NCBI GenBank assembly: GCA_020437805.1
Contig: JAGQVV010000040.1
Coordinates: 380 to 39,525 of the forward strand
Direction of reading: 5' to 3'
Length of the DNA stretch: 39,146 nucleotides
Source: Flavobacteriales bacterium
GTDB taxonomy: Bacteria; Bacteroidota; Bacteroidia; Flavobacteriales_F; PHOS-HE28
In this document: in pieces, positions 5,951-38,266 of the stretch
Layout of the letters: each line of letters starts with the position of its first letter
Numbering within the stretch: the stretch's first letter is position 1
Notes under the pieces: model-generated
The model's input: the letters and a program-made list of their open reading frames with translations, nothing else
Told to the model about the DNA's origin: nothing
The model's database searches: none
Program-made: the position numbers and the translations under genes

Positions 5951-5977
5951 CAACAAGTGGTGGTCGATCGCGGGTGG

Positions 5978-5985
5978 CAAAGGTG
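5978..5985 (-). promoter_or_regulatory. Possible -7 box (CACCTTTG) for the RND transporter gene
   Basis: The minus strand reads CACCTTTG, one change from TAnnTTTG, 27 nt upstream of the ATG at 5950. It lies in the divergent gap shared with the WG-repeat gene and supports the 5950 start over 6022. Confidence 0.4.
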
Positions 5986-6009
5986 GGCATGAGCGGTGTA
6001 TGACCCGGC

Positions 6010-6017
6010 TAACTTTG
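6010..6017 (+). promoter_or_regulatory. -7 box TAACTTTG of the WG-repeat gene
   Basis: An exact TAnnTTTG match ends 7 nt before the ATG at 6025, so the transcript would begin only a few bases ahead of, or at, the start codon. Confidence 0.6.
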
Positions 6018-6024
6018 TGCACCG

Positions 6025-14500: not shown

Positions 14501-14518
14501 GCCGGGTACGATGGTATG

Positions 14519-14526
14519 CAAAGGTG
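14519..14526 (-). promoter_or_regulatory. Possible -7 box (CACCTTTG) of the methyltransferase gene
   Basis: The minus strand reads CACCTTTG 18 nt upstream of the ATG at 14500, the same sequence as at the RND transporter gene. It supports the start at 14500. Confidence 0.4.
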
Positions 14527-14591
14527 GGGAGGTTGTGCCGATAGGACCGTGGTACTCGATCTTCGACACGGATCGGCAGGTGCCACCGCCG

Positions 14592-14599
14592 TACTTTCG
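14592..14599 (+). promoter_or_regulatory. -7 box TACTTTCG of cyclase 1
   Basis: TACTTTCG (one mismatch from TAnnTTTG) ends 7 nt before an in-frame TTG at 14607, the best-placed start of the cyclase. Confidence 0.45.
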
Positions 14600-14606
14600 C
14601 GCCCTC

Positions 14607-15647
14607 TTGACCGCGATCACCCGATACAAGCTGAGGAAGCTGGCGAAGTACACGCTGGTCACCATGGCGGTAGCCGCGGCCTTCCTGCTTTTCAGCGGCG
14701 AGCGTATGGACCTGCAGATCGGTGCCTGGGCCCTCCTCGGATTGTGGACGGGCATCCTGGAGGAGTATCTGTTCGGGCGTCGGTTCAGGGGCTTGGCCAT
14801 CCCCTTGCAGTTCCTGGGAAAGGTGTTTCTGGTGAACCTGCTCACCATCGGTCTCATCGTACTGGGTTTCGCGCTCAATTCGGAACGCTTCGATTGGTAC
14901 AGGGCGGCCCAACCCGAACGCTTGCCGCAGATATTCTTGATGAAGCAATTCTACACCCTGATGCTCCGGGTCATCATCGTAACATCATTCGCTATCCTCG
15001 TGGTGCAGGTGGAGGAGCTGATGGGACGCCGTATGTTCTTGGGGTTCCTGTTGGGCCGATATGAACGTCCCCAGGCCGAGGAGCGCGTGGTGCTCACCAT
15101 GGATCTGGTACGGAGCACCACCCTAGCAGAGCAAATGGGGGATGTCCGCTACTTCCGCTTCCTGAACACGACCTATTCCTTGATGACGGATGCCGTGTTG
15201 AGGAATGAGGCGGATATCCACAAATACGTGGGAGATGAGGTGATATTCACCTGGCCGATGCGCGTAGGCGTTCGATACGAGAACTGCCTGGATCTTTATT
15301 TCGATATCGTCGAACGCATCGAGGAGCACGCTGAGGAGATACGCTCGGAATTCGGTACTGTGCCGCAGTATCGCGCAGCCTTGCACGGCGGTCGTGTGAT
15401 CTCCGCACAGGTCGGGCATACCAAGCGTTCCTTGGAATTGAGCGGCGATGTCATGAACAGTGTTTCCCGCATGTTGGGCCTCGCGAAGGAGATGAAGGTG
15501 GACCTGCTCGCTTCCGCCGAACTTCTCGGCCGGGTACCTTCCGCGAGTGAGCGTTTCAAGGTGGGTCCCCAGCACACCGTACCAGTGAAAGGACGCAAAC
15601 GCGAGGTGCGGGTCCATGGCGTGGAACGCGAACATCGTACGGTATGA
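14607..15647 (+). CDS. Membrane-anchored class III adenylate/guanylate cyclase (cyclase 1)
   Basis: A 346-residue protein with four TM helices (about residues 14-31, 38-57, 69-90 and 115-136) and a cytoplasmic class III cyclase domain from about 155. Metal-binding Asp residues are D166 (MDLVRST) and D210 (HKYVGDEV). The base-reading Lys (K206) is present, the partner position is Glu (E277), and the transition-state pair N284/R288 is intact (SGDVMNSVSR), so it should be active and probably makes cAMP. The frame is open back to 14379, but that part overlaps the divergent gene. TTG at 14607 was chosen because a TACTTTCG box precedes it and it gives a short basic N-terminus; ATG at 14664 would cut TM1. 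Its stop overlaps the next start (ATGA). Confidence 0.88.
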   Translation: MTAITRYKLRKLAKYTLVTMAVAAAFLLFSGERMDLQIGAWALLGLWTGILEEYLFGRRFRGLAIPLQFLGKVFLVNLLTIGLIVLGFALNSERFDWYRAAQPERLPQIFLMKQFYTLMLRVIIVTSFAILVVQVEELMGRRMFLGFLLGRYERPQAEERVVLTMDLVRSTTLAEQMGDVRYFRFLNTTYSLMTDAVLRNEADIHKYVGDEVIFTWPMRVGVRYENCLDLYFDIVERIEEHAEEIRSEFGTVPQYRAALHGGRVISAQVGHTKRSLELSGDVMNSVSRMLGLAKEMKVDLLASAELLGRVPSASERFKVGPQHTVPVKGRKREVRVHGVEREHRTV

Positions 15648-16768: not shown

Positions 16769-17839
16769 TCACTCCTCATCGGAGGTACCCAATAATGTCC
16801 ACAGCTTTATCGCATTGGTCTTCCCTTTGAGGTCCGTGCTACCGATCCCACGTACCTGATAAGCATTCGGAAGGCGGAGTACGTCCATCAATTCCTGCGA
16901 TATCAGGTTGTCCACGCCATGGGCGTTGCACTGACCTTGGATGTGAGCGGCGGTGTTCACTACATCGCCGGTATAGATGCGTTCCTTCTTCACCAGACCC
17001 ACCTCACCAACGGTGACCGGTCCGTAATGGAAACCGGCCTTGAACAGTGGGGCATGACCGTATCGGGATTCATAATGCGTTGCGCGGCGTTTCAGTTTTC
17101 TCCTGATGTCCAGGAAGCAACGGATGCAGCGTTGCCTCCCGACGCCGTTGCGGAGCGACCAACTGACGCTGACCTCGTCGCCGACATACTGGTAGATCTC
17201 CCCCCGTGAATAGACGATGGAATCCGTGATATCGGCGTACAGTTCGTTCAAGAGCTTGAAGTATTCCACATGCCCGATGCGTTCCGCCACTGCGGTGGAG
17301 CTGCGCATGTCCAGGAACATGAAGATCCGCATTTCCTGCTTGGGACGGTGGTATCGACCGGTGAGGTAGTTGATACCACCACTTCCATACTGGTCGTTCA
17401 GGCGGACCATCAACATGGTGCCGGCCATGAGCAGGGTCCAGTACAGGTAATGCCCGAGAAAGGACAGGGTCAGGATATCGGAAGCCACCTCGTGGGACCC
17501 TTCGGGTATCGGGTGTGACAACCTTGGCACGAAAGCGATCACGCTGGTCATCACCACCGCCATCAGTATGGCCATGATGGAAACGGCCTTCGCGTAGGAA
17601 TACCTGCGCCATCTGTCCCGAAGCACGAAAATGTACAGGCCGCCACCCAGAAGACCGGCGAACAGCGAGATCAGGATGCGTTCCTGTATCCGTTCCTGTA
17701 GTGTCCCGAGCAGCCCATGTTGGACCATCACATTGTGCTCGAAAAGGGCGGCGATACTGCCGACAATGACCCATGAGATCGCGATACGCAACGCACGGTG
17801 CAGCCGCAATCGCGTACGGGATAGTACTTGGGTGGACAC
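16769..17839 (-). CDS. Membrane-anchored class III cyclase with altered active site (cyclase 2)
   Basis: A 356-residue paralogue of cyclase 1: four TM helices in residues 18-148, then the linker TGRYHRPKQEMRIF (cyclase 1: LGRYERPQAEERVV) and the cyclase domain. Metal-binding Asp residues D177 (FLDMRSST) and D221 (QYVGDEV) are kept. However, the base-reading Lys is Gln (Q217), its partner is Ile (I288), and the catalytic Arg after N295 is His (H299, in VVNTAAH). Substrate and activity are therefore uncertain. The start was set at GTG 17839, 5 nt downstream of a TAACTTCG box; the upstream ATG at 17872 would place the box inside the coding region. It is divergent from the 18000 gene. Confidence 0.85.
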   Translation of the reverse strand: MSTQVLSRTRLRLHRALRIAISWVIVGSIAALFEHNVMVQHGLLGTLQERIQERILISLFAGLLGGGLYIFVLRDRWRRYSYAKAVSIMAILMAVVMTSVIAFVPRLSHPIPEGSHEVASDILTLSFLGHYLYWTLLMAGTMLMVRLNDQYGSGGINYLTGRYHRPKQEMRIFMFLDMRSSTAVAERIGHVEYFKLLNELYADITDSIVYSRGEIYQYVGDEVSVSWSLRNGVGRQRCIRCFLDIRRKLKRRATHYESRYGHAPLFKAGFHYGPVTVGEVGLVKKERIYTGDVVNTAAHIQGQCNAHGVDNLISQELMDVLRLPNAYQVRGIGSTDLKGKTNAIKLWTLLGTSDEE

Positions 17840-17844
17840 GGGTG

Positions 17845-17852
17845 CGAAGTTA
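17845..17852 (-). promoter_or_regulatory. -7 box TAACTTCG of cyclase 2
   Basis: The minus strand reads TAACTTCG, ending 5 nt before the GTG at 17839. It is one mismatch from TAnnTTTG and would give a leaderless message. Confidence 0.5.
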
Positions 17853-17888
17853 GCCGTGGCCCTGCTCCGCATGTTGCGCCGGTTTCAC

Positions 17889-23836: not shown

Positions 23837-24595
23837 ATGCGAAAGGTCGTAGCCGGGAATTGGAAAATGCACAAGGATCGGTCCGGAGCCACGGACCTGA
23901 TAGCGACCTTGGTCGCTGCAAAGTCGGGCCTTCCGAGTGGTGTGGAGGTCATCATCGCGCCACCATTTCCTTTCTTGGCGCTGGCTGTAGAAGGGGTGAA
24001 AGGAAGCGCTATCGCTGTGGCGGCGCAGAACTGTCATCAAGCTGCGCAAGGTGCATACACGGGTGAGGTCAGCGCTCCGATGTTGGCAAGCATGGGCGTT
24101 TCGGCCTGTCTGGTCGGTCACAGTGAGAGGCGTGAGTACTTCGGGGAAACGGACCTGCTCGTGGCACAAAAGGTCAAGGCCTTGCTCGAAGCCGGGATCA
24201 CACCCATATACTGCTGCGGGGAAAAGCAAGAGGAGCGAACTGCCGGAAGGCACTTCGAAGTGGTCTCCGCACAGATGAAGGATGCCTTGGGTGCATTGGA
24301 TCCCGAGCAATTGATGAAGGTCGTGGTCGCCTATGAGCCCGTGTGGGCGATCGGGACCGGCCTCACCGCGACCGCAGCGGAAGCCCAGGAGATGCATGCA
24401 TTCATCCGAGGTTTGCTGCGCAGCCATGGTAACGATGTGGCGAACGCGGTGCCTGTGCTTTACGGCGGAAGTTGCAAGCCGGACAACGCTGCTGAACTTT
24501 TCGCTGGCCCTGATGTGAACGGTGGCCTCATCGGCGGAGCCGCTCTGGATGCAGACCAATTCCTTTCCATCATCCGCGCAGCAGGAGACTCCTGA
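23837..24595 (+). CDS. tpiA: Triose-phosphate isomerase
   Basis: TpiA interconverts dihydroxyacetone phosphate and glyceraldehyde 3-phosphate in the cytoplasm. The 252 residues are full length. Catalytic residues are visible: N8 and K10 (VAGNWKM), H95 (VGHSERREYF) and E167 (VVAYEPVWAIGTG), plus the phosphate loop VLYGGSCKPDN and the closing GGLIGGAAL. The frame stays open upstream to 23777, but MRKVVAGNWKM is the family start, and a GATCTTTG box ends 4 nt before it. It is the first gene of a tight operon with prmA, a large secreted protein gene and plsY. Confidence 0.97.
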   Translation: MRKVVAGNWKMHKDRSGATDLIATLVAAKSGLPSGVEVIIAPPFPFLALAVEGVKGSAIAVAAQNCHQAAQGAYTGEVSAPMLASMGVSACLVGHSERREYFGETDLLVAQKVKALLEAGITPIYCCGEKQEERTAGRHFEVVSAQMKDALGALDPEQLMKVVVAYEPVWAIGTGLTATAAEAQEMHAFIRGLLRSHGNDVANAVPVLYGGSCKPDNAAELFAGPDVNGGLIGGAALDADQFLSIIRAAGDS

Positions 24596-24617
24596 ACGTG
24601 GTTCAACCTCCAGGACA

Positions 24618-25469
24618 TTGTCACATACGCGCGTTTCCTTCCTCATCGCACCCATCCATCCTTGGCGCGACATCCTACTGGTGGAACTCGGTGCCCTTGG
24701 CTACGATAGCTTCGAGGAGACCACCGGAGGGTTGGAGGCCTACGTGCCAACAGCCGATTTCGACGCATTGGCGGTCTCCAGGCTGATGACCTTACGTGAC
24801 CCGCATGTCAGCGTATCCTGGTCCCATGCGGAGATGCCCGATCGCAATTGGAATGCGGAATGGGAGCGGAGTTTCGTGCCGGTGGAGGTGGATGGGCTTG
24901 TCCGCGTTCGCGCCGAGCACCACGAGCCGGATCCGTCCTTCAAGTATGAATTGGTCATTACACCGCGCATGGCATTCGGGACCGGGCATCACGCCACCAC
25001 GCGTATGATGGCACGTGCTATGCTGGGCCTCGATCTTGCCGGGAAGGCGGTATGCGATCTCGGGTGTGGTACAGCGGTCCTTGCCATGCTGGCCGAGCGA
25101 ATGGGAGCCGGGCACATAGTAGGGGTCGATATCGATGAAGTGGCTGTGTCCAACGCCAAGGAGAACGTGCTGCGGAACGGTTGTCCCATGATCACTGTGG
25201 AAAAGGGTGACGCCAATACCCTGGTGGGCCGCCGACACGACGCTATTTTGGCGAACATCGAACGGAATACATTGATCGATGCGATGCCGGTCATGGCCGA
25301 TGCGCTGAAGCCCGGTGGTGCGTTGCTGCTCAGTGGTTTCGTGGTGAAGGACCGCAAATACCTGGAGGCCGCCGCTGGCGATCAAGGCCTGATCATGGCG
25401 GAGCGGTTGGAGGAAGGGGAATGGTCCTTGCTTGGTTGTCGGAAACAGATCGAAAAGGATCCCGGATGA
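24618..25469 (+). CDS. prmA: Ribosomal protein L11 methyltransferase
   Basis: PrmA methylates amino groups of ribosomal protein L11 using SAM. With a TTG start at 24618 it has 283 residues. SAM-fold motifs are clear: AFGTGHHATTR (119-129), VCDLGCGTAVLAM (about 146-158), GVDIDEVAVSNAKEN (169-183) and ANIERNTL in the catalytic loop. The frame is open back to 24522 inside tpiA, but those residues are out-of-frame tpiA sequence. No ATG lies between tpiA and the first conserved strand (VSFLIAPIHPWRDILL), so TTG at 24618, 22 nt after the tpiA stop, is the best choice. The stop overlaps the next start (ATGA). Confidence 0.93.
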   Translation: MSHTRVSFLIAPIHPWRDILLVELGALGYDSFEETTGGLEAYVPTADFDALAVSRLMTLRDPHVSVSWSHAEMPDRNWNAEWERSFVPVEVDGLVRVRAEHHEPDPSFKYELVITPRMAFGTGHHATTRMMARAMLGLDLAGKAVCDLGCGTAVLAMLAERMGAGHIVGVDIDEVAVSNAKENVLRNGCPMITVEKGDANTLVGRRHDAILANIERNTLIDAMPVMADALKPGGALLLSGFVVKDRKYLEAAAGDQGLIMAERLEEGEWSLLGCRKQIEKDPG

Positions 25470-28400
25470 AAACCATGAAGAGGTTTAAGGAGCGTGCCTT
25501 GTCCATGTTCCTCGTCCTGGTCGTTGCTGGTGCAACGAATGCACAGTCAGTTTCGTTTTCCTCGGAACAGGCCCTCTTCCTTCAGGAAATGACGGACTTC
25601 GTGGTCGGGGCGGACAAGAAGGAAGGGAAACCGTTCATGGAGGAGGTCTTCGCACCGGCGTGGAACGGACCCTATTTCACGGAGGCACAACGCGTAAGGA
25701 TCGCCGAAGTGGCGAATCTCATGGCCAAGAAACGCTTTGATGCCTTCCCGCATTATCGGGATCTCCTCGGTATCCTTGTCGCCTTTTCGACAGGTGGTCG
25801 AAGCCCAGGGGAATTCGATGCATGGATGACCGGCATGGCCGGGCTCGCCGAGAGAGAGCGCAAGCAGAATGTGGTGGCCTTCCTTTCCACCTGTGCAAAC
25901 CTGTTCGACAGCAGCACCATGTTCAATAGTGCCAGTACACAGTGGCGCAGCAGTAGCAGGAAGTTCACGTTCGCTTTCGACAGCATACCCAAGGTCGTAT
26001 TCCCTTCGATGGATCTGATCTGCACGGCAAAAGGCGATAGTGCTGTGATCAAGGCCACCTCGGGTACCTATCTGCCGACCTTGGAGGTATGGCAGGGTAA
26101 AGGTGGTATCGTGACCTGGGAGCGGGCCGGCCTGAAGCCCGCGGCCACCTTCGCGGAATGGTCCCACGCGTATGAGATCAAGATGAAGAGCGCCACCTTC
26201 GAGGTGGATTCGGTCCAATTCAATGATCCCTATTTCGAGCGAACGCTGCTCGGCAAGGTCACGGACAAAGTGTTGGCGAATGTGGAGGAGGGCACCGCGA
26301 GCTATCCGCGTTTCGAGAGCTACGATAAGCGGATGAAGATCCGGGACATCGTGGAGGGGATCGATTTTGAAGGGGGATTTGGCATGCAAGGCGCCAAGCT
26401 GCAAGGCTTCGGCACCAAAGAGGAGCCGGCGTTCATGACCTTTTACAGGGACAAGCGCCCGTTCATCATCACCAGAGGGACCTTCTTCAGCATCGAACCC
26501 GAGCGGATCACCAGCGATGATGTGAGCGTTCGTATCGTTCTCGACAAGGATTCCATCCATCATCCCAGCGTGAGCATGCGATTCCTGAAAGGGAAGAAAT
26601 TGCTGTCCCTGATCAAGAAGGATGTCGGATTGGGCAAGGCGCCGTTCTATGACACTTATCATATGCTGGACATGTACTTCGAGACGATCTCTTGGAAGCA
26701 AGGCGATCCGTTGGTGCAATTCGGCAACCTGCAGGGAAGCACCCAGACCCGAGCCAGCTTCGAAAGCTTCAATTACTTCAAGGAGAAACGGTACGTGGGC
26801 ATGCTCGGCATCGATGCGATACATCCGCTGGTGCGGTTGAACGATTTCAGCAAACAGAACGATGGGAAGTTCTATGCGCAGGAGTTCGCCGTGTTCAGCC
26901 GTATGCAGAAGGATGCCGTGGTGCCATTGATCATCGACATGGCCAACAAGGGCTACCTCTCCTACGACCCCGAAACGGAATGGGTGGAGACCACGCCAAG
27001 GCTGCGGCAACACATCCTTAACAGCGCGGGCAAGCAGGATTATGACGTGCTCCAGTTCAACAGCAACAGCGATAGTCTCAATGCCACGGTGAACCTGCTG
27101 AACTATGACCTGGCCATCATGGGTGTGGCGCGTATCGTAATGAGCGACTCCCAGGACGTGAAGATCTATCCGAGCGATAAGATCGTGACCGTGAAGAAAG
27201 GCCGCGATTTCTCCTTCGGTGGAAGTGTTCAGGCGGGTAAGCTGCAGTACTACGGCAAGGAATACTATTTCCACTACGAACCTTTCGTGATCGACCTGCT
27301 CAACGTCGACTCGGTCAGCTTCATGGCCGATAGCTTCGGAAAGAACGACGAGGGTCTCACCACGCTGGTACGAGTGAAGAACGTCCTGGAACAGGTGACC
27401 GGGACATTGGAACTGGATGCTCCGAGCAACAAGAGCGGACTGCAGCAGAAGAAGTACCCGGAATACCCCAAGTTCAACAGCGCCAAGGAAAGCTATGTGT
27501 TCTACGATAAGAGCAGCATTCAGCGCGGAGTCTATACCAGGGACAAGTTCTATTACCGTAGCGATCCCTTCCAATTGGATAGTTTGGACAACTTCACCAA
27601 TGCCGGTCTGAATTTCACGGGGACCCTGGTCTCTGGTGGGATCTTCCCGGATATCAAACAACCGCTCGGGCTACAGCCGGACTATGCCTTGGGCTTCGTG
27701 CGCGGTACCGGCGATGCGGGTATGCCGTTGTATGGACGAAAGGCCACCTTCACGAACGAGATCAGCCTCAACAGCCGTGGCCTTCAGGGCAAGGGGGAAC
27801 TCGCCTATCTCACCACCACGCTCAGTTCGCGTTCCTTGATCTTCTGCCCGGACAGTACCCTCGGTCGCGCCGATACCTTGACGAATCGTTCATCCACTGC
27901 ACCGGCCAAGGTGCCGAAAGTGGTGGGTAGCGACCTGTTCGTCCGTTTGGAGCCACTGAAGGATAATCTGCGGGTCGAAAAGTTGCGCAAGGCCATGACC
28001 ATGTATGATGGTCAAGCGTACTTGTACGGGCTCACGGACCTCACGCCACAAGGCATGACCGGCGCGGGTCTGGTCGATTTCACCAACGCTACATTGAAGT
28101 CTGACCTGTACAGCTTCGAGACGATGCAACTGCATGCGGATACGTCGGATTTCCGCCTGACGGAAGGGGATACCTCGAGCATCGCCTTCAAAACGGACAA
28201 TGTGAACGCCACGGTCAAGCTCGATGAACGTGTGGGTGAGTTCGTGAGCAATGGCACGGAGACGAAGGTCGAATTCCCGGTGAACCAGTACATGTGTTAC
28301 ATGGACCGGTTCAAGTGGTTCATGGACCAAGGGGACATCGAACTTGAGAGTGATCGTACGGCCGCCGTTGGTAACGAGGACCTCCAGCTCTCCGGGTCCA

Positions 28401-29920
28401 ACTTCATCAGTACGCGGGAGGACCAGGACTCGCTCAGCTTCATGGCGCCCAAGGCGCGGTATGACCTTAAGAAGCACCTGATCACCGCCAACGATGTACA
28501 GTACATCCAAGTGGCCGATGCTCTTGTGACCCCGGACAGCATGCGCGTTCGGATCCGGAAGAACGCCGTAATGGACCCGCTCACCAACGCTGTGATCACC
28601 GCGAACTACGTGACCAAGCACCATCGCATCTACAACGCCACGGTCAATATCAAAGCCAAGCGGAAATACAGCGCCACCGGCGATCTGGACTATGTCGACG
28701 TGAACAAGAAACCATACAGGATCACTTTGCACAACATCGACGTCGATACCGCTTACCAGACCTATGCGAACGGTCGGATCCCCAAGGAGGCCGACTTCCA
28801 GTTGAGCCCCGCATTCGATTTCTTCGGTGAGGTGCGCTTGACCTCGAGCATCAAGGAACTCACCTTTTCCGGAAGCACCCGGATCCAGCATGGCTGCGAC
28901 GGCCTTTCCAAGAACTGGATGACGTTCACGGGCGAGATCGATCCCTTGGAGGTCTTCATTCCAGTTGCGGATACGCTCTTTGATGATACCGGTGCGCTCA
29001 TTGGTGCTGGGGTATATCTCACGAACGAGGACCCCTTCAAGACCTATGGGACCTTCCTCAGTCGAACGCAGGATCGAAAGGACCACCCCATCATCAATGC
29101 GAAAGGCCTTTTGTTCTATGATGAAGGCCGCAAGGAGTACATGATCTCCAACAAGGACAAGATCCGCAAGCGTGATCTTCCCGGTGATCTTGTGAGCTTG
29201 GCGGTGGAGAATTGCGTGATCCTTGGCGATGGTCGTATCGACCACGGCGTGGACCTTGGGCGCGTGGCGCTGACCAATGTGGGCTCCTTGCGCTTCGAGG
29301 CCGATGGTGCGAAAGCAAGCACCGAGGAGGTGATGATCGCCGATTTCCACTTCTTGGACAACGCGTTGGAGCGCATGGCCGAGGAGATCCTCGCTTACCC
29401 CGACCAAAAACAAGTGGATATCACCAAGACCTACTATGAGAAGATGTTGCGCGAAGTGCTTGGTCGGGAGCGTTCGGACAAATTGATCAGCGAATTGAGC
29501 ATCAAAGGAGAGATCAAGAAGCTTCCGGACGAGATCATGAAGCCATTGGTGTTGGCCGATGTGAAGATGCGTTGGGATGGCCCTGAGCAAAGCTGGTTGA
29601 GCGATGGCCCGATCGGGATCGCGAGCATCCTGAAGAAGCCGGTGTACCGCTACGTTAAAGGAAAGGTCCACCTGGAACGCAAGCGCAGTGGGGATATCCT
29701 TACCATCCTGCTCATGCTCGACGATCAGTCGTACTACTTCTTCCAATACACGCGGAACTACCTTTACGCTTACAGCAGTGACAATACCTTCAATACCATG
29801 TTGAGCGAGGTGAAGGACGACAAGCGACAATTGGATGGCGGCAAGGACCAAGCGCCTTACCAGTACATCCTGACCAACAGGAAAAAGGCGGATGACTTCC
29901 GCGAACGATTCGGCCTCTGA
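25466..29920 (+). CDS. Very large secreted protein of unknown function (1484 aa)
   Basis: It begins at the ATGA that ends prmA. A signal peptide (MKTMKRFKERALSMFLVLVVAGATNAQ) is followed by a helical domain (about 28-130: SSEQALFLQEMTDFVVGADK, PYFTEAQRVRIAEVANLMAKKR) and then about 1250 residues of beta-strand-rich sequence with no TM segment. Recurring themes are VRIVLDKDSIHHP, YDLKKHLITANDVQYIQVAD and VKLDERVGEF, reminiscent of stacked beta layers such as OstA/LptA-like or AsmA/TamB-like folds, but no family can be assigned by eye. It lies between prmA and the lipid gene plsY and ends 3 nt before plsY. An envelope role, perhaps lipid-related, is only an inference from position and fold impression. 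The long frames on the opposite strand are shadows. Confidence 0.85.
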   Translation: MKTMKRFKERALSMFLVLVVAGATNAQSVSFSSEQALFLQEMTDFVVGADKKEGKPFMEEVFAPAWNGPYFTEAQRVRIAEVANLMAKKRFDAFPHYRDLLGILVAFSTGGRSPGEFDAWMTGMAGLAERERKQNVVAFLSTCANLFDSSTMFNSASTQWRSSSRKFTFAFDSIPKVVFPSMDLICTAKGDSAVIKATSGTYLPTLEVWQGKGGIVTWERAGLKPAATFAEWSHAYEIKMKSATFEVDSVQFNDPYFERTLLGKVTDKVLANVEEGTASYPRFESYDKRMKIRDIVEGIDFEGGFGMQGAKLQGFGTKEEPAFMTFYRDKRPFIITRGTFFSIEPERITSDDVSVRIVLDKDSIHHPSVSMRFLKGKKLLSLIKKDVGLGKAPFYDTYHMLDMYFETISWKQGDPLVQFGNLQGSTQTRASFESFNYFKEKRYVGMLGIDAIHPLVRLNDFSKQNDGKFYAQEFAVFSRMQKDAVVPLIIDMANKGYLSYDPETEWVETTPRLRQHILNSAGKQDYDVLQFNSNSDSLNATVNLLNYDLAIMGVARIVMSDSQDVKIYPSDKIVTVKKGRDFSFGGSVQAGKLQYYGKEYYFHYEPFVIDLLNVDSVSFMADSFGKNDEGLTTLVRVKNVLEQVTGTLELDAPSNKSGLQQKKYPEYPKFNSAKESYVFYDKSSIQRGVYTRDKFYYRSDPFQLDSLDNFTNAGLNFTGTLVSGGIFPDIKQPLGLQPDYALGFVRGTGDAGMPLYGRKATFTNEISLNSRGLQGKGELAYLTTTLSSRSLIFCPDSTLGRADTLTNRSSTAPAKVPKVVGSDLFVRLEPLKDNLRVEKLRKAMTMYDGQAYLYGLTDLTPQGMTGAGLVDFTNATLKSDLYSFETMQLHADTSDFRLTEGDTSSIAFKTDNVNATVKLDERVGEFVSNGTETKVEFPVNQYMCYMDRFKWFMDQGDIELESDRTAAVGNEDLQLSGSNFISTREDQDSLSFMAPKARYDLKKHLITANDVQYIQVADALVTPDSMRVRIRKNAVMDPLTNAVITANYVTKHHRIYNATVNIKAKRKYSATGDLDYVDVNKKPYRITLHNIDVDTAYQTYANGRIPKEADFQLSPAFDFFGEVRLTSSIKELTFSGSTRIQHGCDGLSKNWMTFTGEIDPLEVFIPVADTLFDDTGALIGAGVYLTNEDPFKTYGTFLSRTQDRKDHPIINAKGLLFYDEGRKEYMISNKDKIRKRDLPGDLVSLAVENCVILGDGRIDHGVDLGRVALTNVGSLRFEADGAKASTEEVMIADFHFLDNALERMAEEILAYPDQKQVDITKTYYEKMLREVLGRERSDKLISELSIKGEIKKLPDEIMKPLVLADVKMRWDGPEQSWLSDGPIGIASILKKPVYRYVKGKVHLERKRSGDILTILLMLDDQSYYFFQYTRNYLYAYSSDNTFNTMLSEVKDDKRQLDGGKDQAPYQYILTNRKKADDFRERFGL

Positions 29921-29923
29921 ACC

Positions 29924-30574
29924 ATGGAGTTCCCTTGGGTGTACGGAACGGCATCAATGGTGGCAGCTTACCTAGTGGGGAGCATCCCCACCAGCGTGTG
30001 GTGGGGAAGAACCTTCCACGGGCTGGACGTGCGCGAACACGGCAGTCGCAATGCGGGCGCCACCAACACCTTCCGGGTGCTCGGGAAAAGGGCCGGAATT
30101 CCAGTGCTGATGATCGATATCCTGAAGGGATTCTTACCGGTACGTATCCTCCCGAACTTCACTTCATTGGATCCCGATTCGGCGCCTTGGATGTGGTTCC
30201 GATTGGCCCTGGTCATCGCAACGGTGCTCGGGCATCTGTATCCGGTGTTCGCGGGCTTCAGGGGCGGGAAGGGGGTCGCCACCTCCTTCGGCGGCATCCT
30301 CGCCATTCATCCCGGAGCGGCCGGTGCCTGCGTAGTGGTATTCACGTTGGTCTTTTTCACAACGCGCTATGTCTCACTCGGGTCGCTTTCCGCAGCGATC
30401 ACCTTTCCCTTGGCCGTGTTGCTGGTCTTTCACGAAACAAGTCCGGTCAAGATCGGCTTCGCGGTGATATTGTGCCTGCTGGTCTTCTACACGCATCGGC
30501 AGAACATCGGACGATTGCTCCGTGGCGAGGAACGTCGCATGTCCTTGGCTGGGGCAAAGGACAGCGAAGAATGA
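29924..30574 (+). CDS. plsY: Acyl-phosphate:glycerol-3-phosphate acyltransferase
   Basis: PlsY makes lysophosphatidic acid from acyl-phosphate and glycerol 3-phosphate, the first acylation in phospholipid synthesis. It is a 216-residue polytopic inner-membrane protein. The family motifs are all present: GSIPTSVWWGRTFHGLDVREHGSRNAG (19-45, with the SIPT and GSRNAGATN active-site loop), GHLYPVFAGFRGGKGVATSFG near 103-123, and a third loop RYVSLGSLSAA. It starts 3 nt after the preceding stop, so it is co-transcribed with tpiA, prmA and the 1484-residue gene. The tail after the last TM is basic. Confidence 0.96.
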   Translation: MEFPWVYGTASMVAAYLVGSIPTSVWWGRTFHGLDVREHGSRNAGATNTFRVLGKRAGIPVLMIDILKGFLPVRILPNFTSLDPDSAPWMWFRLALVIATVLGHLYPVFAGFRGGKGVATSFGGILAIHPGAAGACVVVFTLVFFTTRYVSLGSLSAAITFPLAVLLVFHETSPVKIGFAVILCLLVFYTHRQNIGRLLRGEERRMSLAGAKDSEE

Positions 30575-30618: not shown

Positions 30619-33600
30619 ATGACCCGCATTTCGGGCATACTTATCGGCGCTCTCTTCACCATACTGGCACATGCCCAGGGTGGTGACCAACAGCTGCGCG
30701 CCAAGGCCGATGGGCTCTTTGAACAGAAGAATTACATCGAGGCGCTTCCCCTGTACAGTCAACTCGTCAGCCTCAACCCGAGCGATAGGGTTCTCAATTA
30801 CCGTTTCGGGACATGCCTGCTCTTCGGTGGTGAGGAGAAGGACAAAGCCATTGGCCACCTCAAATTCGCCGTGGAGGATCCCGGGATACCGGCCGATGCC
30901 TGGTTCTGGCTGGGGCGCGCCTACCATTTGAGCTATATGTTCAAGGAGGCCCAAGCGGCGTATCAGCGATACCAGGGCACCGCGAGCAAGAAAGAGTTGG
31001 AGGGGTTCTCCGTTGCCGCATTGGACAAACAGTGCAGGAACGGTCAGCGCCTTCTGAACAACTTGAAGGAGATCACAGTGCGGAACAAGGTGGAGGTGGA
31101 TGACAATGAGTTCTTCCGATTCTATGACCTCAGTGACATCGGAGGAAAGATCGTGGTCTTACCCGAGGAACTGATGTCCGGTCTGGACAAGAAGAGCAAC
31201 GAACGTACGCTCGTGTACCTCCCGAACAATGGTGCACCGATCTATTTCAGCAGCTACGGGAAGGACGGAAAGACGGGTCGCGATATCTACCGCACGGAAC
31301 TGATGCCCGAAGGTCGGTTCGCACCGCCCGTGAAGCTCGCAGGTTACATCAACACCGACCAGGATGAGGATTACCCGTTCCTGCACCCGGATGGTAAGAG
31401 CTTCTACTTCAGTAGCAAGGGCCACAACAGTATGGGTGGCTACGATGTCTTCCGGTCCGCCTATGACAAAGGGCTCGATGTTTTCGGCCCGCCGGAGAAC
31501 ATGGACTTCGCGGTGAATACCCCGGACGACGACTTGTTCTATCTGGTCGATCCCGAGAACAAAGAGGCATGTTTCGCCAGTGGGCGTGATAGTGAGCAAG
31601 GAAAGCTGCACGTGTACCGGGTATCCACCGCCCAAATGCCGGTGGTGCTCACGGTCCTGAAGGGGACCTATGCCAGCGCGTTCGATCCGGATGATCGCAA
31701 GGCACACATCATGGTGGAAGATGCCACCACACGTGAGAAGGTAGCTGATGTACGGACCGATATGAACGGCTCCTACATCCTATCGTTACCCCGCAGTGGG
31801 CAATTCCGGTTCGCTGTGGAATGTGGCCCGAGTGGTCGAACACACACCGGGCTCGTGGATATTCCAAGATCTTCTTCACCACGTGCCTATCGGCAGGAAT
31901 TGGAACTGACCAGGCAGGGGGATCTCGAGAAGCTCGTGATCCACAATTATTTCGACAGCCCCTTGGATGAGGATATGATCGCTTTGATGATGGATGAGAT
32001 CAAGCGGCGCGCTCGTCTTGACCTCTCAGGGGAGCGACCCGAGATCGTCGAGGCCCAGGAAACGGATGTGCCGGTGGGTGATGTCATGACCCAAGCCGGG
32101 TTCACCGGCGACATCACCTTGGATCAAGCCGTGGCCTTGGCGAAGGATGATGCCGCCGACTTGGAGCGAAAGTCATACGACTTGGAAATGCTGGGGCAAG
32201 AGGCCTATGCCATAGCCATGGAAGCAGCCTCGGAATCGGATCGCACGGCCAGAGCAGCAGAAGATCTGGTCAAGGCTGCCGAGGTCGCACCGACCGAAGA
32301 GGAGAAGAACGCAACGATGGTCGAGGCGGCACGGATCAGGCAGCGTTCCAAAGAGGCCAACATGCGTGCCCGGGCCGCATTGTATACCGGCCAGGACCTT
32401 GGATCCGAAGCCTTGGCCACCCGGCAACGTGCCCTGGCCGCGGGGAAACTCGCCACCGACCTTTCCAACACAGTGGCCGCCAAGAACGACAAGGCCACGC
32501 TCCCGCTGTTGACAACCCTCAAGGAACGCTTGGATACCAAGGCCGGTCCCAACGGAGACTTGGACCCGGCCGAGCGCGCGCGACGCTCACTTTCGGAACA
32601 GGAGCAGGAAGCCGCGAAACAGCTTCGCGTCGCCAATGCGAAACGGGCCGAGGAGAATGAGTTCATGGACCGCATAGCGCGCACTGAGCGTGAGCGCGAT
32701 GAAACACGGAACAAGGGCAAGCAGGAAGAGCTTGACCGTCAAATAGCGGAACAAAAGCAACAGTTGTCCTATCTGCACAAAGAGGTGGAGGAGTCCTTCA
32801 CCAAGGCCAAGGAGCAGGAGCAACGTACGGCGGTGCTGCGTGGGCAAGCATCGCTCACCGCTCATTTGACGAGTACTTCTGAACGTGGCGCGGCCACAGA
32901 TCTTTCTGCTCAGCAGGTCTCAGGTCTTGGACAACGCATCGCAGGCAATGAAACCCGGATCGGCTCGTTGGCGATCGATGAACGCTATGATGCTCAGATA
33001 TCCTCCTCCACGGCCGAAGTGGAAGCGCGCAGCTTCGATTGGGACCTCGCCTCGGCGGGTGCGGAGACCGGCGAGGCCCGCCGATCGACCACTGCACGCG
33101 ACGGGACGGACGATGCAACGAACACAACAGGACGTACCTCCACGGTCATCTCCGATGTGTCGCCAGGACAGGTGAAGGAAGCGGAGGTTACCGAGGTCAT
33201 ATTGGGTTCAACGGCAGAGGAACTCGCGGATACAGGACGGGATGAAGCATCAGGAGCTGTGGCCATTGGTGATCCTGATCTCGATCCCGAAGTGACGGCT
33301 GCGGGGCTCGAGGACACCAGGACCGAACGCACCGATGCAGGAACGAACGCGATCGACGAGAGGACCGTTTCCCCCGTTGCGGACATTGCCTCGGATACCG
33401 GCACCGAACAGGCCACCGCCGATACGGAAGGGCCGGAAAGGAATGGCGCCGAAATGGACAATACCGGATCCGCCTTGGAGGGTTCCGGCGCATCCGATCC
33501 ACTCGCCTCGGATGAGGTGGATGCCTTTATCCTGGAGAATCGGAAAGCCGAGTTGGAACAAGCCCTGGCGGCGGAACGCAACAAGGCTCGTAAGGACAGT

Positions 33601-36600
33601 CTTCAGGCATCCCTGGATGTGGTGGAGGAGCGCATCAGAACCAACGCGGATGATGGGGCCATCGTGGAACGAACACCGGTCAATGAAGGGACGGACACCT
33701 ATGGCGTGGATATGACCCGTACCCCGATCACCTTCTACCCGGACTCGAAGGACGAGGATATCATCGCCATGCTCCATGCCGACTATGCTGCGGACAAGGA
33801 GCGTTTGGAAGCCATCGGGGATACGACTCTTCGCGCGGAAGCACTGAGCGGACTGGAGCTGATGCTGGCGGATAGTCTACGAGGTGAAATGGTACGTCAA
33901 GCCACCATTCTAGAGCTTTCCCCGGAGCAAAGTGATGTCGTGCTACCGAAAATGGAACGCCTACGCGTGATGCGTCAGACCCATTTGAAGACCGCTGACC
34001 AATATGAACGGATGAGCAAAGCACCGCTTGCGGAGCGTACCGAGCCCTTGGATGCCGATCGCGCACGACCTGCACCACGGGCGGCCGTTCGTTACTTGGA
34101 CGGACAGGACCCCATAGCCGATCGTTTCGTTGCCGTACAACCTGATGCGCAGAACGTCTACGCCAGCAAGTTGGAGCATCGGTCGACCAAGGTGGATGAC
34201 GCGGTGGCCTTCAAGGATGCCGATCTGGAGCGATTGGATCGCCTGACGGCGGAGATCGATTCCATCGAAATGGGAATGAACGGCTTGCCCCGCAAGGAGT
34301 ATGATAAGCAGCGTCGGGAAGCGGACAAGCTGATCGATGAGCGTATGATCATCCGCTCCGACCTCGGTCAACGCAGCGCCTTCCTTTCGAAGGAGGAATG
34401 GCGCACTGCGACCGATAGTATGAAGGTACTTGACAAGCAGCTCTCCACGTTGGGTTTGGCGCCGGATGAGAACCTTCTGCTCATGGCCAAGGGTATGGGC
34501 GCCGAGGCGGGCACGCTCTTCGATCGTGCTGCCGGCTTGCGCAAACGTGCCGATCGCAGCGAGGACATCCTTGAACGGGACAGCTTGTACCGAACCGCAT
34601 ATGCCATGGAGTTGAGCGCTCTTAAGGAGATCGATCGTGCGCTTACCGTGAAGAACTACTTGATCGGTAAGGACTTCCGGAGAGGAGAGACGCTTGCGTA
34701 CGAACAGGTCGCCAGCAAAGTGCTGGGTATCGATGCTCCCCTGTACGCCGAGGAACAGGATGCGGAAAGGGCCCCGACGGATCCATCCATCGCACGTACC
34801 GGTCACATTTCGGATGGAACGTTGACCTCCCAAAGTGGAACGGAGGAAGGCGGTTCGCGCACGATCGCTGTGAGTTCTGGTGTTCCATCGGGGCCGGTCA
34901 GCGTGGCATTGACGGCTGATGGTCCTGAAAGCGAGGCCGCGATCGACCGTACGGATAAAGGTGCGGAAACCGACGGCCCAGCGACGACAGGAGGTACCAC
35001 GTTGGTTGGACCGACGGCGGTCGAGGCCGCCAATGCTACCGAGCGTGCACGTTCCGAAGCGATCGATGAAGTGGAGCGTGCGAGTGCACAAGTTCCTGCT
35101 GAAGCGCTCGATCCCGCTGTGCGCTATGAACGGTTCATGACCAGCGAGAGTGTGGTACTCGCACCGGAGGCCATGGATCCAGCCTATGACCCTGAACTTC
35201 TTTCCATCCAGGCCAAGGCAGCAGTAAGGAACTCTGCCGAATTGGAGCAACGTTCACTTGAGCTCGCGGATCGTGCCACGGTCCTGGAGGACAGCGCCGT
35301 CACGGCACGAAAGCGGGATCGCGAGGAGTTGACCATTTTGGCGGTCCGTACCCGGTCCACGTCAGATTCCTTGCATACCGCATCGGTGTTGAAGTCCGAA
35401 GAGGCACGTTCCTTGGAGCTGCAACGCCGTGACGCGGAGCAGGCCAAGGTGCTGCGTGACCGGCTCGTGAAGTACTACTACCTCTCACCGGAGGAACAAG
35501 CCATGGTCGTGGAGAATGCCGATCAAAGCCGGTATTTCCAGGCGAAGGCCCGTGCTTTGGAGCAGTATGATATGGCACGGGAGGCGGAAGAGGCGGCCGG
35601 TATCAATCGGAACCTTGCCGGCACCTTGCGTGCACAGGTGGAAAGCACGCGTAAGGATGTGGCGGAAGGACGGATCACACCGGCCGAAGGCGATGCACGC
35701 AACGAGGTACTGGTCACGCGATCCGGGCTCTTCGAGGCACGGGCGGATTCGCTCAGCAACGTGGCCGCTCGCTTGCGTGGAGCGGCTGGTATCAACGAAG
35801 GTCAGGCCACCGTGATGCTGCAGTCCGTACCCGAGGACCGTTCCACGGAGTGGATGGCATTGGAGATGCGGGCGCGTCGTACCGAGGCTCTATTGGCCGA
35901 GGCACGGGACCAAGCCGGACGCCAGCGTAACGCGGCGATCACGCCCGTTGATGGAACCGTCGATCCGACGTTATCCATTGCGGGGACCAGGACCGGCAAC
36001 TCGATCCCAGCTTCATCTGAACGTCAGGCAGGGGCGACCACACGACCGGTCGGCACTGAGAACAACAGGCCCATCACCGAAAGTGCTCCTTCAGGCGCAG
36101 TGCTGGCGGTCGGTTTCCCGGACGAGCTCGTGACCGACATTTTCGAACTGAAGGATGCCGGCGTTCGCAGTGCCGAACCGATCCCGATCGATGTGCGCTT
36201 GCCCCAAGGCTTGGTGTTCAAGGTCCAGATCGGTGCCTTCCGCAATGCCATCCCGGAAGAGACCTTCAGTGATATGACACCGGTGACGGGCGAGCGGCTC
36301 GACAATGGTATAGTGCGCTACACCGCCGGTCTGTTCACCGGATTCGAACAGGCTTCCGAAGCGAAGGACCTTGTGCGTGATCGTGGCTATCGCGATGCCT
36401 TCGTAGTCGCTTATCGGGACGGGGAGCGCATTCCTTTGGGCGTCGCCATGCGTGAAGCACGTGCGGAACGTGATCTGGCCGTGGCAACAACTCCGGTACC
36501 CACCACACCTTCGAACGGTACCATTCGGACCGATGGATCGGATGCGGACCCGAACGGCACACGGCCCGCTGCGCGAAGGGCGGAAGGAAATACCGTACTG

Positions 36601-37113
36601 GAACCAAGGACGGGCCAAGTGCCTGCGCAGCCCACGCAACCCGCCGTCATCAGTGCGCCCATCGTGATCCCGATACCGGAGGTATCAAGCACTGCTGATG
36701 ATCCCACGGCGAAGTACGCATCAACGGCGGACGCCATCCTTTCGGAATTCAACGCTGCACCCGGGTCTGCCGGCTATTACAACGGAGCGGATGCTGCTCC
36801 AGCACGTCAGGTGGAGACCATCGCAGGCCTCTTCTTCACGGTCCAGGTAGGAGTATACAGCAAGCCGGTCCCATTGGGCAGGATCTTCAACATCACTCCG
36901 CTGAACACCGAACGCACCAGCACCGACAAGATCCGCTATACCACCGGGATGTACTTCGATCCCGAAGCGGCTCGGGTGCGGAAGGACGAGACCGTCGCAT
37001 CGGGCGTGAAGGACGCCTTCGTGACGGCCTACCTCAATGGCAAGCGCATCCCCATGCAGGAGGCTTCCGCGCTCTTGGACAAGTTCGGACCGGCCATTCT
37101 GGCGAAGCCTTGA
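30619..37113 (+). CDS. Giant envelope protein: TPR, PD40 propeller, CRD, coiled coils, two SPOR-like domains
   Basis: A 2164-residue protein. A signal peptide (residues 1-20) precedes TPRs (about 22-150), a PD40/WD40 propeller (about 195-330: APIYFSSYGKDGKTGRDIY, HPDGKSFYFSSKGHNSMGGY, CFASGRDSEQGKLHVY) and a carboxypeptidase-regulatory-like domain (about 345-425). This opening order matches the T9SS outer-membrane anchor PorE. Where PorE has an OmpA domain, this protein has coiled coils (about 490-770), an acidic Thr/Glu-rich linker (about 800-960), more coiled coil to about 1360, a second linker to about 1470, coiled coil again, and two SPOR-like domains (about 1860-1945, FKVQIGAFRNAIP...YTAGLFTGF; about 2068-2150, FTVQVGVYSKPVP...YTTGMYFDP). 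SPOR domains bind denuded peptidoglycan. It probably links the outer membrane or T9SS to the cell wall; that is inference. Confidence 0.85.
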   Translation: MTRISGILIGALFTILAHAQGGDQQLRAKADGLFEQKNYIEALPLYSQLVSLNPSDRVLNYRFGTCLLFGGEEKDKAIGHLKFAVEDPGIPADAWFWLGRAYHLSYMFKEAQAAYQRYQGTASKKELEGFSVAALDKQCRNGQRLLNNLKEITVRNKVEVDDNEFFRFYDLSDIGGKIVVLPEELMSGLDKKSNERTLVYLPNNGAPIYFSSYGKDGKTGRDIYRTELMPEGRFAPPVKLAGYINTDQDEDYPFLHPDGKSFYFSSKGHNSMGGYDVFRSAYDKGLDVFGPPENMDFAVNTPDDDLFYLVDPENKEACFASGRDSEQGKLHVYRVSTAQMPVVLTVLKGTYASAFDPDDRKAHIMVEDATTREKVADVRTDMNGSYILSLPRSGQFRFAVECGPSGRTHTGLVDIPRSSSPRAYRQELELTRQGDLEKLVIHNYFDSPLDEDMIALMMDEIKRRARLDLSGERPEIVEAQETDVPVGDVMTQAGFTGDITLDQAVALAKDDAADLERKSYDLEMLGQEAYAIAMEAASESDRTARAAEDLVKAAEVAPTEEEKNATMVEAARIRQRSKEANMRARAALYTGQDLGSEALATRQRALAAGKLATDLSNTVAAKNDKATLPLLTTLKERLDTKAGPNGDLDPAERARRSLSEQEQEAAKQLRVANAKRAEENEFMDRIARTERERDETRNKGKQEELDRQIAEQKQQLSYLHKEVEESFTKAKEQEQRTAVLRGQASLTAHLTSTSERGAATDLSAQQVSGLGQRIAGNETRIGSLAIDERYDAQISSSTAEVEARSFDWDLASAGAETGEARRSTTARDGTDDATNTTGRTSTVISDVSPGQVKEAEVTEVILGSTAEELADTGRDEASGAVAIGDPDLDPEVTAAGLEDTRTERTDAGTNAIDERTVSPVADIASDTGTEQATADTEGPERNGAEMDNTGSALEGSGASDPLASDEVDAFILENRKAELEQALAAERNKARKDSLQASLDVVEERIRTNADDGAIVERTPVNEGTDTYGVDMTRTPITFYPDSKDEDIIAMLHADYAADKERLEAIGDTTLRAEALSGLELMLADSLRGEMVRQATILELSPEQSDVVLPKMERLRVMRQTHLKTADQYERMSKAPLAERTEPLDADRARPAPRAAVRYLDGQDPIADRFVAVQPDAQNVYASKLEHRSTKVDDAVAFKDADLERLDRLTAEIDSIEMGMNGLPRKEYDKQRREADKLIDERMIIRSDLGQRSAFLSKEEWRTATDSMKVLDKQLSTLGLAPDENLLLMAKGMGAEAGTLFDRAAGLRKRADRSEDILERDSLYRTAYAMELSALKEIDRALTVKNYLIGKDFRRGETLAYEQVASKVLGIDAPLYAEEQDAERAPTDPSIARTGHISDGTLTSQSGTEEGGSRTIAVSSGVPSGPVSVALTADGPESEAAIDRTDKGAETDGPATTGGTTLVGPTAVEAANATERARSEAIDEVERASAQVPAEALDPAVRYERFMTSESVVLAPEAMDPAYDPELLSIQAKAAVRNSAELEQRSLELADRATVLEDSAVTARKRDREELTILAVRTRSTSDSLHTASVLKSEEARSLELQRRDAEQAKVLRDRLVKYYYLSPEEQAMVVENADQSRYFQAKARALEQYDMAREAEEAAGINRNLAGTLRAQVESTRKDVAEGRITPAEGDARNEVLVTRSGLFEARADSLSNVAARLRGAAGINEGQATVMLQSVPEDRSTEWMALEMRARRTEALLAEARDQAGRQRNAAITPVDGTVDPTLSIAGTRTGNSIPASSERQAGATTRPVGTENNRPITESAPSGAVLAVGFPDELVTDIFELKDAGVRSAEPIPIDVRLPQGLVFKVQIGAFRNAIPEETFSDMTPVTGERLDNGIVRYTAGLFTGFEQASEAKDLVRDRGYRDAFVVAYRDGERIPLGVAMREARAERDLAVATTPVPTTPSNGTIRTDGSDADPNGTRPAARRAEGNTVLEPRTGQVPAQPTQPAVISAPIVIPIPEVSSTADDPTAKYASTADAILSEFNAAPGSAGYYNGADAAPARQVETIAGLFFTVQVGVYSKPVPLGRIFNITPLNTERTSTDKIRYTTGMYFDPEAARVRKDETVASGVKDAFVTAYLNGKRIPMQEASALLDKFGPAILAKP

Positions 37114-37181: not shown

Positions 37182-37469
37182 ATGGCAACACGCTTCGAAT
37201 TCGCACCGGACGAACTCGTCATGGAGGAGGTCCGGAAAGGAACCGCTTCCTACCGGGAGATCGTTCTGCACAATGATGATGTGAACACCTTCGATCACGT
37301 GATCCGGTCATTGGTGGAAGTATGTGAGCATGATCCGATACAAGCCGAGCAGTGTGCTTGGATCGTGCACAACAACGGTAAGTGCAGTGTGAAGCGCGGA
37401 TCCTACGAGCAATTGGAAGCACGCTGTGATGCCTTGCAGCTTCGTGGTCTTGCCGCCGAGATCCAATGA
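37182..37469 (+). CDS. clpS: ATP-dependent Clp protease adaptor ClpS
   Basis: ClpS delivers N-degron substrates to the Clp protease. The 95-residue protein has the family core: EIVLHNDDVNTFDHVIRSL (26-44, with the N-degron-pocket DDxNT region), the CEHDPIQAEQCAWIVHNNGK helix-turn (48-67) and a YEQLEARCDALQLRGL helix with the usual C-terminal beta-strand. The 25-residue N-terminal extension is normal for the family. The start lies 4 nt after a TAAATTCG box, so its message is probably leaderless. The stop overlaps the next gene's start (ATGA). Confidence 0.95.
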   Translation: MATRFEFAPDELVMEEVRKGTASYREIVLHNDDVNTFDHVIRSLVEVCEHDPIQAEQCAWIVHNNGKCSVKRGSYEQLEARCDALQLRGLAAEIQ

Positions 37470-38266
37470 GCATGAGGTCAAAGGCCATCTTGTTGCTCGT
37501 CTTCTTGGCGGTGTTCGAGTCGTGCGCACGCGTGCCCATCACCGGTCGTCGCCAGCTTAACCTGGTGAGCGAAGGGGAGATGATGTCGATGGCATCGACC
37601 CAGTATCAGGAGTTCCTGGGTGAGAACCAACCTTTGCCACCATCCAATGCCGATGTGGTCCGCGTGAGGGACATCGGGAACAAATTGGCGTTGGCCGCCA
37701 CCACTTATTTGACCGACAACAATGCTTCGGATCGCGTGGCCGATTTCCAATGGGAGTTCAATGTGGTGAACGACCCGACCGTGAATGCCTGGTGTATGCC
37801 AGGGGGCAAGGTGGTGGTATACACCGGGATCCTGCCGATCACCCAGAACGATGCCGGGTTGGCGGTGGTCATGGGTCACGAGATCGCACATGCCATCGCA
37901 CGGCACGGCAATGAACGCATGAGCCAGGGGATCGCGGTGCAAGGGGCCGGCATGACCTTGGAGGTGCTGAACCAGCAGAAGCCGACCTACGCAGGGGATC
38001 TCTTCCTTCAAAGCTTCGGCATCGGTTCACAACTGGGGATGCTGGCGTACAGCCGCACGCATGAGACCGAGGCGGACAAAATGGGCCTGATCTTCATGGC
38101 CATGGCCGGTTATGACCCGCGCGAGGCGCCGTTATTCTGGCAACGCATGAGTGCCGGAGGCGGTGCAGCACCCCCTGAGCTCCTCAGCACCCACCCGAGC
38201 GATGAGACCCGGGTCCGGGATCTGGAGGCCTATATGCCAGAGGCTCTGAAGTATTATAAGCCATAG
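37466..38266 (+). CDS. M48-family metalloprotease, lipoprotein
   Basis: A 266-residue zinc protease. A lipoprotein signal (MSMRSKAILLLVFLAVFESC, lipid Cys at 20) places it in the periplasm or on a membrane. The catalytic helix is GHEIAHAIARHG (HEIAH at 138-142) and the third zinc ligand is in ETEADKMGL (about 201-208). It resembles the M48 BepA/LoiP group, which degrade or fold outer-membrane proteins; the conserved NPxVNAWCMPGGKVVVYTGIL strand is present as DPTVNAWCMPGGKVVVYTG. It starts at the clpS stop codon overlap, so the two protein quality-control genes are coupled. ATG at 37472 is an alternative start. Confidence 0.92.
   Translation: MSMRSKAILLLVFLAVFESCARVPITGRRQLNLVSEGEMMSMASTQYQEFLGENQPLPPSNADVVRVRDIGNKLALAATTYLTDNNASDRVADFQWEFNVVNDPTVNAWCMPGGKVVVYTGILPITQNDAGLAVVMGHEIAHAIARHGNERMSQGIAVQGAGMTLEVLNQQKPTYAGDLFLQSFGIGSQLGMLAYSRTHETEADKMGLIFMAMAGYDPREAPLFWQRMSAGGGAAPPELLSTHPSDETRVRDLEAYMPEALKYYKP

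Follow-up and report, generated by a model that had tools for sequence, protein, structure and literature searches.

A family of giant, probably exported beta-rich proteins with a predicted LptA-type jellyroll in part of the Bacteroidota: a candidate envelope lipid conduit

In a 39,146-nucleotide (nt) stretch of a Flavobacteriales bacterium genome (GenBank contig JAGQVV010000040.1; hereafter the window), a gene located between prmA and plsY encodes a protein of 1484 amino acids (aa). Our best reading is that this protein and its relatives form an undescribed family with lengths of about 1460-1860 aa. We propose that family members are very large soluble proteins of the periplasm that include an LptA-type segment and act as an extra conduit for envelope lipids. 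We give this proposal a little under an even chance; it counts against it that the jellyroll segment found no sequence relative. The features of the gene and its product are as follows.

25466..29920, + strand: complete gene for the 1484-aa protein, whose family is covered by no Pfam or NCBIfam model (open reading frame, relatives, and dN/dS, the ratio of nonsynonymous to synonymous substitution rates)
25466..25543, + strand: probable signal peptide, residues 1-26, with an ATNA end before Q and no lipobox cysteine (sequence judged by eye; AQ is the family consensus)
25568..25912, + strand: six-helix N-terminal domain, residues 35-149 (AlphaFold; predicted local distance difference test [pLDDT] of the block 79-89)
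25916..26767, + strand: first beta region, residues 151-434 (AlphaFold)
26789..27019, + strand: predicted inserted winged-helix domain, residues 442-518 (structure comparison and insert profile)
27053..29344, + strand: second beta region, residues 530-1293 (AlphaFold models)
27902..28564, + strand: predicted beta-jellyroll of LptA/LptC/LptD N-domain type, residues ~813-1033 (structure comparison of both models)
29357..29908, + strand: C-terminal alpha/beta part with helices and a final beta segment, residues 1298-1481 (AlphaFold)

The structural evidence comes from two AlphaFold models in which the beta regions are long and antiparallel. Model 1 covers residues 28-1120 (pLDDT 80.5; predicted template modelling score [pTM] 0.46) and model 2 covers residues 560-1484 (pLDDT 84.9; pTM 0.59); both were built from the same 17 sequences, so they are not independent. 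In VIA-align comparisons, Lpt chains headed the lists for both models at residues ~803-1038, and the best Lpt matches across models had Z 10-12.6 with a root mean square deviation (rmsd) of 2.2-3.8. LptD, LptA, LptC, and LptH matched model 1 at residues ~817-1038 (Z 9.8-12.6) and model 2 at residues ~803-1018 (Z 9.9-11.7). Among individual chains, LptD 9rps aligned with Z 12.6 and rmsd 3.4 over 151 residues, LptC 6mjp with Z 11.9 and rmsd 2.2 over 126 residues (model 2), and LptA 2r1a with Z 10.7-11.1 and rmsd 2.8-2.9 over 118-120 of 131-135 residues. Foldseek also placed LptD at the top for both models (E ~1e-3 for model 1 and 2.5e-4 for model 2); all five model 2 matches at E ≤ 0.001 were LptD, and single LptA and LptC chains were assigned probabilities mostly of 0.9 or more, up to 1.00. 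Non-Lpt beta chains (TCP10, MORN, junctophilin, OspA, and others) reached only Z ≤ 9.0 with rmsd ~5-14 in model 2, as generic beta meanders would. ApoB and MTTP appeared in the Foldseek lists with TM < 0.2 and rmsd ≥ 20, and these matches were not used. We regard one LptA-type jellyroll at residues ~813-1033 as well supported as a prediction, and it is plausible that neighboring beta stretches continue it. The PDB structure comparisons, which hardly tested the first beta region (151-434), identified no fold there.

Residues 442-518, inserted in the beta part, are predicted to form a winged-helix domain, and here the sequence support is independent of the model. VIA-align matched the insert to many winged-helix chains, including MarR and IclR proteins (Z 7.1-10.4). 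A profile made from the insert alone (32 members) recovered 28 PDB sequences at E ≤ 1, predominantly winged-helix regulators; the best matches were transcription factor E (E 0.0026) and a MarR protein (E 0.0028). Winged-helix Pfam models each matched the insert in up to 4 of the 32 members (best: Fe_dep_repress, E 1e-4), and none matched the window's own copy. The predicted fold is that of MarR- and IclR-kind winged helices; the copy described here, however, sits inside a probably exported protein. DNA binding is therefore unlikely, and the insert probably makes protein contact.

The 1484-aa frame is a real gene under purifying selection: dN/dS against five relatives was low (0.09-0.24, approximate values, as dS was 1.2-1.4 in this comparison), and changes were concentrated at third positions. 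Sixteen of 20 loci in a first comparison set aligned with the protein, nearly all over its full length, with 29-83% aa identity. Long antisense frames are by-products. The product starts MKTMKRFKERALSMFLVLVVAGATNAQ. If translation began at another in-frame ATG, at 25421, the product would be 15 residues longer; the start at 25466 yields a normal-looking signal peptide as judged by eye. From its sequence, the protein is probably exported without a lipid anchor, and it would then reside in the periplasm. Type IX sorting domains of the CHU_C or Por_Secre_tail type had no match in 32 family members; CHU_C was detected in an 1870-aa protein of the same window. Across the 32-member alignment, 33 columns are invariant (16 Gly, 4 Pro, 4 Asp, 5 aromatic, 2 Ser, 1 Asn, and 1 His), a set that does not look catalytic; conservation in the six-helix domain (35-149) is on the low side for the family. 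No DNA tandem repeats were found in the gene. When the family profile was compared with itself, off-diagonal matches were weak (best E 0.007, probability 5.5%), so repeat units are unsupported by sequence. Two relatives carry damaged copies, perhaps through assembly errors: the copy at locus L018 (6956-11483) is frame-broken, and the one at G311:C18:109494-113897 has one in-frame stop.

An initial annotation, made from the letters of the window, had described this frame as starting on the prmA stop and ending 3 nt before plsY, among tpiA, prmA, and plsY. Its coordinates hold: the ATG overlaps the prmA stop by 4 nt (ATGA; prmA ends at 25469), the plsY start (29924) follows the stop after 3 nt, and Pfam models confirm the identity of all three neighbors. 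The AlphaFold models likewise bear out the helical N-terminal domain and beta-rich remainder that it described, and they add two elements that it missed, the winged-helix insert in the beta region and the helices near the C-terminus.

Sequence searches gave the family no place among known ones. The window protein had no match in Pfam or NCBIfam at E ≤ 1, and no Pfam model of OstA, LptC, TamB, or AsmA matched any of 32 members at E ≤ 10, with the proviso that most hits with E above 0.1 are discarded by the HMMER filters. Matches of single members to NCBIfam models (best: valine-tRNA ligase, E 0.002) were dismissed as noise. Searches of PDB sequences and phage records with the 1484-aa protein, and of PDB with profiles, returned nothing useful. 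In hhalign comparisons, the family profile reached at best E 0.03, over 17 columns, against 24 OstA_2 proteins (best probability 1.5%) and E 0.017 against 26 TamB proteins truncated at locus ends (probability 2.7%); neither amounts to a match. The OstA_2 model recovers its own members in the window's genome. OstA_2 and TamB profiles likewise fail to find each other, so this comparison is blunt for such folds. No publication title on the family or on a prmA-plsY operon containing it was found in the open literature, among the matches listed.

We examined distribution within the Bacteroidota. A match to the giant protein was present in 54 of 58 genomes chosen as relatives (44 of the 46 of good quality) and in 33 of 35 genomes of the same genus, where the two misses are genomes 66% and 73% complete. 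Most relatives had one match, and two or three matches in a genome were pieces of one gene. Among evenly drawn Bacteroidota genomes, a first profile detected the protein in 11 of 296 and a broader profile in 14 of 395; the draws overlap, each counts the window's own genome, and both searches scored first-look candidates only. The three extra positives of the broader profile lay outside the genomes covered by the first draw, so it gained none among those already covered, and the idea that the family is merely hidden by divergence was rejected. The giant protein is thus near-universal in one Flavobacteriales-like lineage and its neighbors and scattered in a few other families. Distant members (L104-L107) are longer, at 1675-1857 aa with mechanically assigned starts, than the ~1480-1500 aa seen in the window's lineage. 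In 25 relatives that were also searched for known envelope systems, LptF/G was found in 25, OstA_2 in 24, TamB in 24, MlaD-type MCE in 25, and the giant protein in 23. The two relatives lacking it are incomplete; one (G296) also lacks a TamB match and the other (G298) an OstA_2 match.

The conserved neighbors of the gene in the window are the following.

23837..24595, + strand: tpiA, triosephosphate isomerase (PF00121, E 5e-92; synteny)
24588..25469 (start approximate), + strand: prmA, ribosomal protein L11 methyltransferase (PF06325, E 6e-44; synteny)
29924..30574, + strand: plsY, glycerol-3-phosphate acyltransferase (PF02660, E 4e-56; synteny)

Synteny was counted by hand in 39 loci, comprising 19 of the 20 loci of the first comparison set and 20 picked for diversity, with neighbors called by blastp at E ≤ 1e-10 against the window proteins. 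The excluded locus (L020) has a fragment followed by plsY; for the broken L018 copy and for over-extended starts, the whole gene was used. In 26 of the 39 loci a same-strand prmA is the immediate upstream neighbor, and in 22 the next gene downstream, no more than 250 bp away, is plsY; both adjoin the giant gene in 18, and at least one does in 30. The link persists in relatives only 22-44% identical to the 1484-aa protein, with prmA upstream in 16 of the 28 loci at ≤44% identity. At the loci missing both genes, two of which (L019 and L113) are cut by a contig end upstream, the inspected neighbors vary from locus to locus. The association with prmA and plsY is old, though not universal, and the prmA link is at least as common as the plsY link; prmA is not known to have a lipid role. 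Directly after plsY, the window encodes a 2164-aa protein (30619-37113, + strand) that resembles TPR and PD40 proteins and, in part and far below curated cut-offs, OmpA proteins of the CHU_0125/PorE type; it also follows plsY in many relatives' loci.

PlsY makes lysophosphatidate, and TpiA acts on dihydroxyacetone phosphate, the source of glycerol-3-phosphate. In the mechanism that we propose, the export signal would send the giant protein out of the cytoplasm, where it would adopt the predicted long antiparallel beta structure, including the jellyroll of LptA/LptC/LptD type. The helical N-terminal domain and the winged-helix insert would dock on envelope partners, and the beta part would form a continuous groove that takes up acyl chains, by which the protein could help to move lipid between the inner and outer membranes beside Lpt, TamB, and MCE. 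Co-expression with plsY and tpiA would couple the protein to the supply of glycerolipids. A beta region stacked along its whole length in the LptA manner might, by a rough estimate from LptA dimensions, reach across the periplasm. A stricter version, which we consider doubtful, is a one-piece periplasmic lipid conduit with the LptA-type jellyroll through most of the chain and a winged-helix docking insert, made together with the first phospholipid acyltransferase, by which some Bacteroidota would deliver glycerolipids or other envelope lipids to their outer membrane.

Several results weigh against a lipid conduit. The jellyroll match covers ~220 of some 1050 beta-region residues, and the remainder was hardly tested; pTM is just 0.46 and 0.59, from an alignment of 17 sequences. 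Lower-scoring Lpt entries were present in the VIA-align lists (Z 8.9 and 7.6 for model 1; six at Z 6.2-9.0 for model 2). In Foldseek, single LptA and LptC chains had E 0.07-0.4, LptD probabilities were 0.03-0.69 with whole-chain TM < 0.2 (low because only the LptD N-domain fits), and model 1 contributed nothing to the count at E ≤ 0.001, its second match being the human apoptosome. The whole family lacks a sequence link to OstA_2, TamB, Pfam models, or PDB Lpt chains, and the jellyroll segment alone (32 members) found no PDB Lpt chain at E ≤ 10 and no OstA or LptC Pfam model, whereas the winged-helix insert finds sequence relatives by profile. Strand hydrophobicity alternated modestly (0.68 versus 0.45 in shuffles; z > 1 in 43% of 51 strands), and within the jellyroll segment alternation was near the shuffled level (mean z 0.44 over 9 strands); the low alternation counts against a simple greasy channel, although the measure is weak and unspecific as evidence on a groove. 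Neither prmA nor plsY lies beside the giant gene in 9 of 39 loci, and most sampled Bacteroidota lack the protein (14 of 395 have it).

Three other explanations were weighed. The protein might act in the periplasm as a scaffold or chaperone, assisting surface assembly or the biogenesis of outer-membrane proteins, a TAM-like role in which it would bind proteins instead of lipids. A winged-helix insert in an exported protein would most likely contact proteins, there is a helical N-terminal domain, the TamB frames here are similar in size (mostly ~1470-1750 aa), and the hydrophobic alternation is modest; yet no TamB profile matches, and of all folds seen the Lpt chains are the best match for the jellyroll segment, which leaves this explanation fairly unlikely. 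Those same matches, which in the clear cases are to LptA, LptC, LptH, and LptD N-domains, could instead point to a lineage-specific part of the bridge that exports lipopolysaccharide or lipooligosaccharide (Lpt), working with an OstA_2-type LptA and the Lpt inner-membrane complex; LptF/G and OstA_2, the Lpt components searched for, occur in 25 and 24 of the 25 relatives. These genomes, however, already have an OstA_2 protein of 427-742 aa, the named neighbors at four loci without plsY include no lpt gene, and by sequence the giant family is unrelated to OstA_2 as far as profiles can tell, so we judge a part in the Lpt bridge unlikely. Least probable, and very unlikely in our view, is a surface or secreted structural protein, adhesive or gliding-related, that merely happens to lie in a housekeeping operon. 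Its large size, beta-rich composition, and patchy distribution in the phylum would suit such a role, but no type IX sorting, PKD, or adhesin model matched in 32 members, and length is kept in most relatives, with one gene per genome as far as seen and low dN/dS.

For the lipid conduit that we prefer, the initial annotation had offered two structural classes and a genomic argument. The LptA/OstA-like class gained a fold at ~813-1033, seen in two models with two aligners, and gained nothing from sequence; the TamB/YhdP (AsmA) class is unsupported, and the profile comparison with OstA and TamB/AsmA that the annotation had suggested gave no match. The structural matches seen do not correspond to the separate globular or Ig-type domains lacking a groove that it had named as contrary evidence. 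The genomic link that it noted is stronger than the letters of the window could show, since it persists at 22-44% identity, but the prmA link is at least as common as the plsY one. The annotation's reading is thus partly supported, and the lipid role stays a proposal.

Elsewhere in the window, an MMPL/RND-type transporter with sterol-sensing similarity is encoded at 3650-6022 (- strand); MMPL proteins often move lipids. The 1870-aa protein (8164-13773, - strand), with CHU_C, PKD, and Ig_7 matches, is likely type IX secretion cargo. Two proteins with class III adenylate/guanylate cyclase domains, at 14379-15644 (+ strand) and 16772-17872 (- strand), flank a 10-bladed propeller protein, and an M48 metalloprotease with a lipoprotein-like N-terminus lies at 37466-38263 (+ strand).

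Replacement of Lpt, TamB, or MCE by the giant protein is unsupported, as all co-occur in the 25 relatives; the giant protein is an addition to these systems and no substitute. With TamB, YhdP, and YdbH (AsmA-like, beta-taco proteins), it shares size class, long beta structure, and a probably periplasmic location. AsmA-like proteins, however, are inner-membrane anchored according to PMC12045153, whereas the giant protein has a probable cleavable signal peptide as judged by eye. It has no profile match to TamB or AsmA, 24 of 25 relatives carry TamB as a protein of its own, and no beta-taco chain was among the 50 matches listed for each structure search, which does not exclude the class. For Flavobacterium johnsoniae, PMC12045153 judged TamL most likely not to be the carrier of the main lipids of the outer membrane, which leaves room for another route by which phospholipids, ornithine lipids, and sulfonolipids reach the Bacteroidota outer membrane. 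The giant protein is a concrete candidate for such a route: its gene is near-universal in one lineage, and its link to prmA and plsY persists between deeply diverged relatives.

LptA is an exported soluble protein. The giant protein resembles it in probably being exported and soluble, and it shares with the OstA-type LptA, LptC, and LptD N-domains the jellyroll fold predicted at ~813-1033. It differs in being about eight times longer than LptA and in carrying the helical and winged-helix domains; it has no detectable sequence relation to OstA_2 or Lpt chains and occurs beside OstA_2 and LptF/G. Because it lacks this sequence relation, we do not file it in the OstA/LptA family. The models suggest that part of the giant protein has the architecture of an Lpt bridge protein, and it may work like one. 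The predicted jellyroll would carry the LptA fold beyond small subunits, into one very long chain with an inserted domain.

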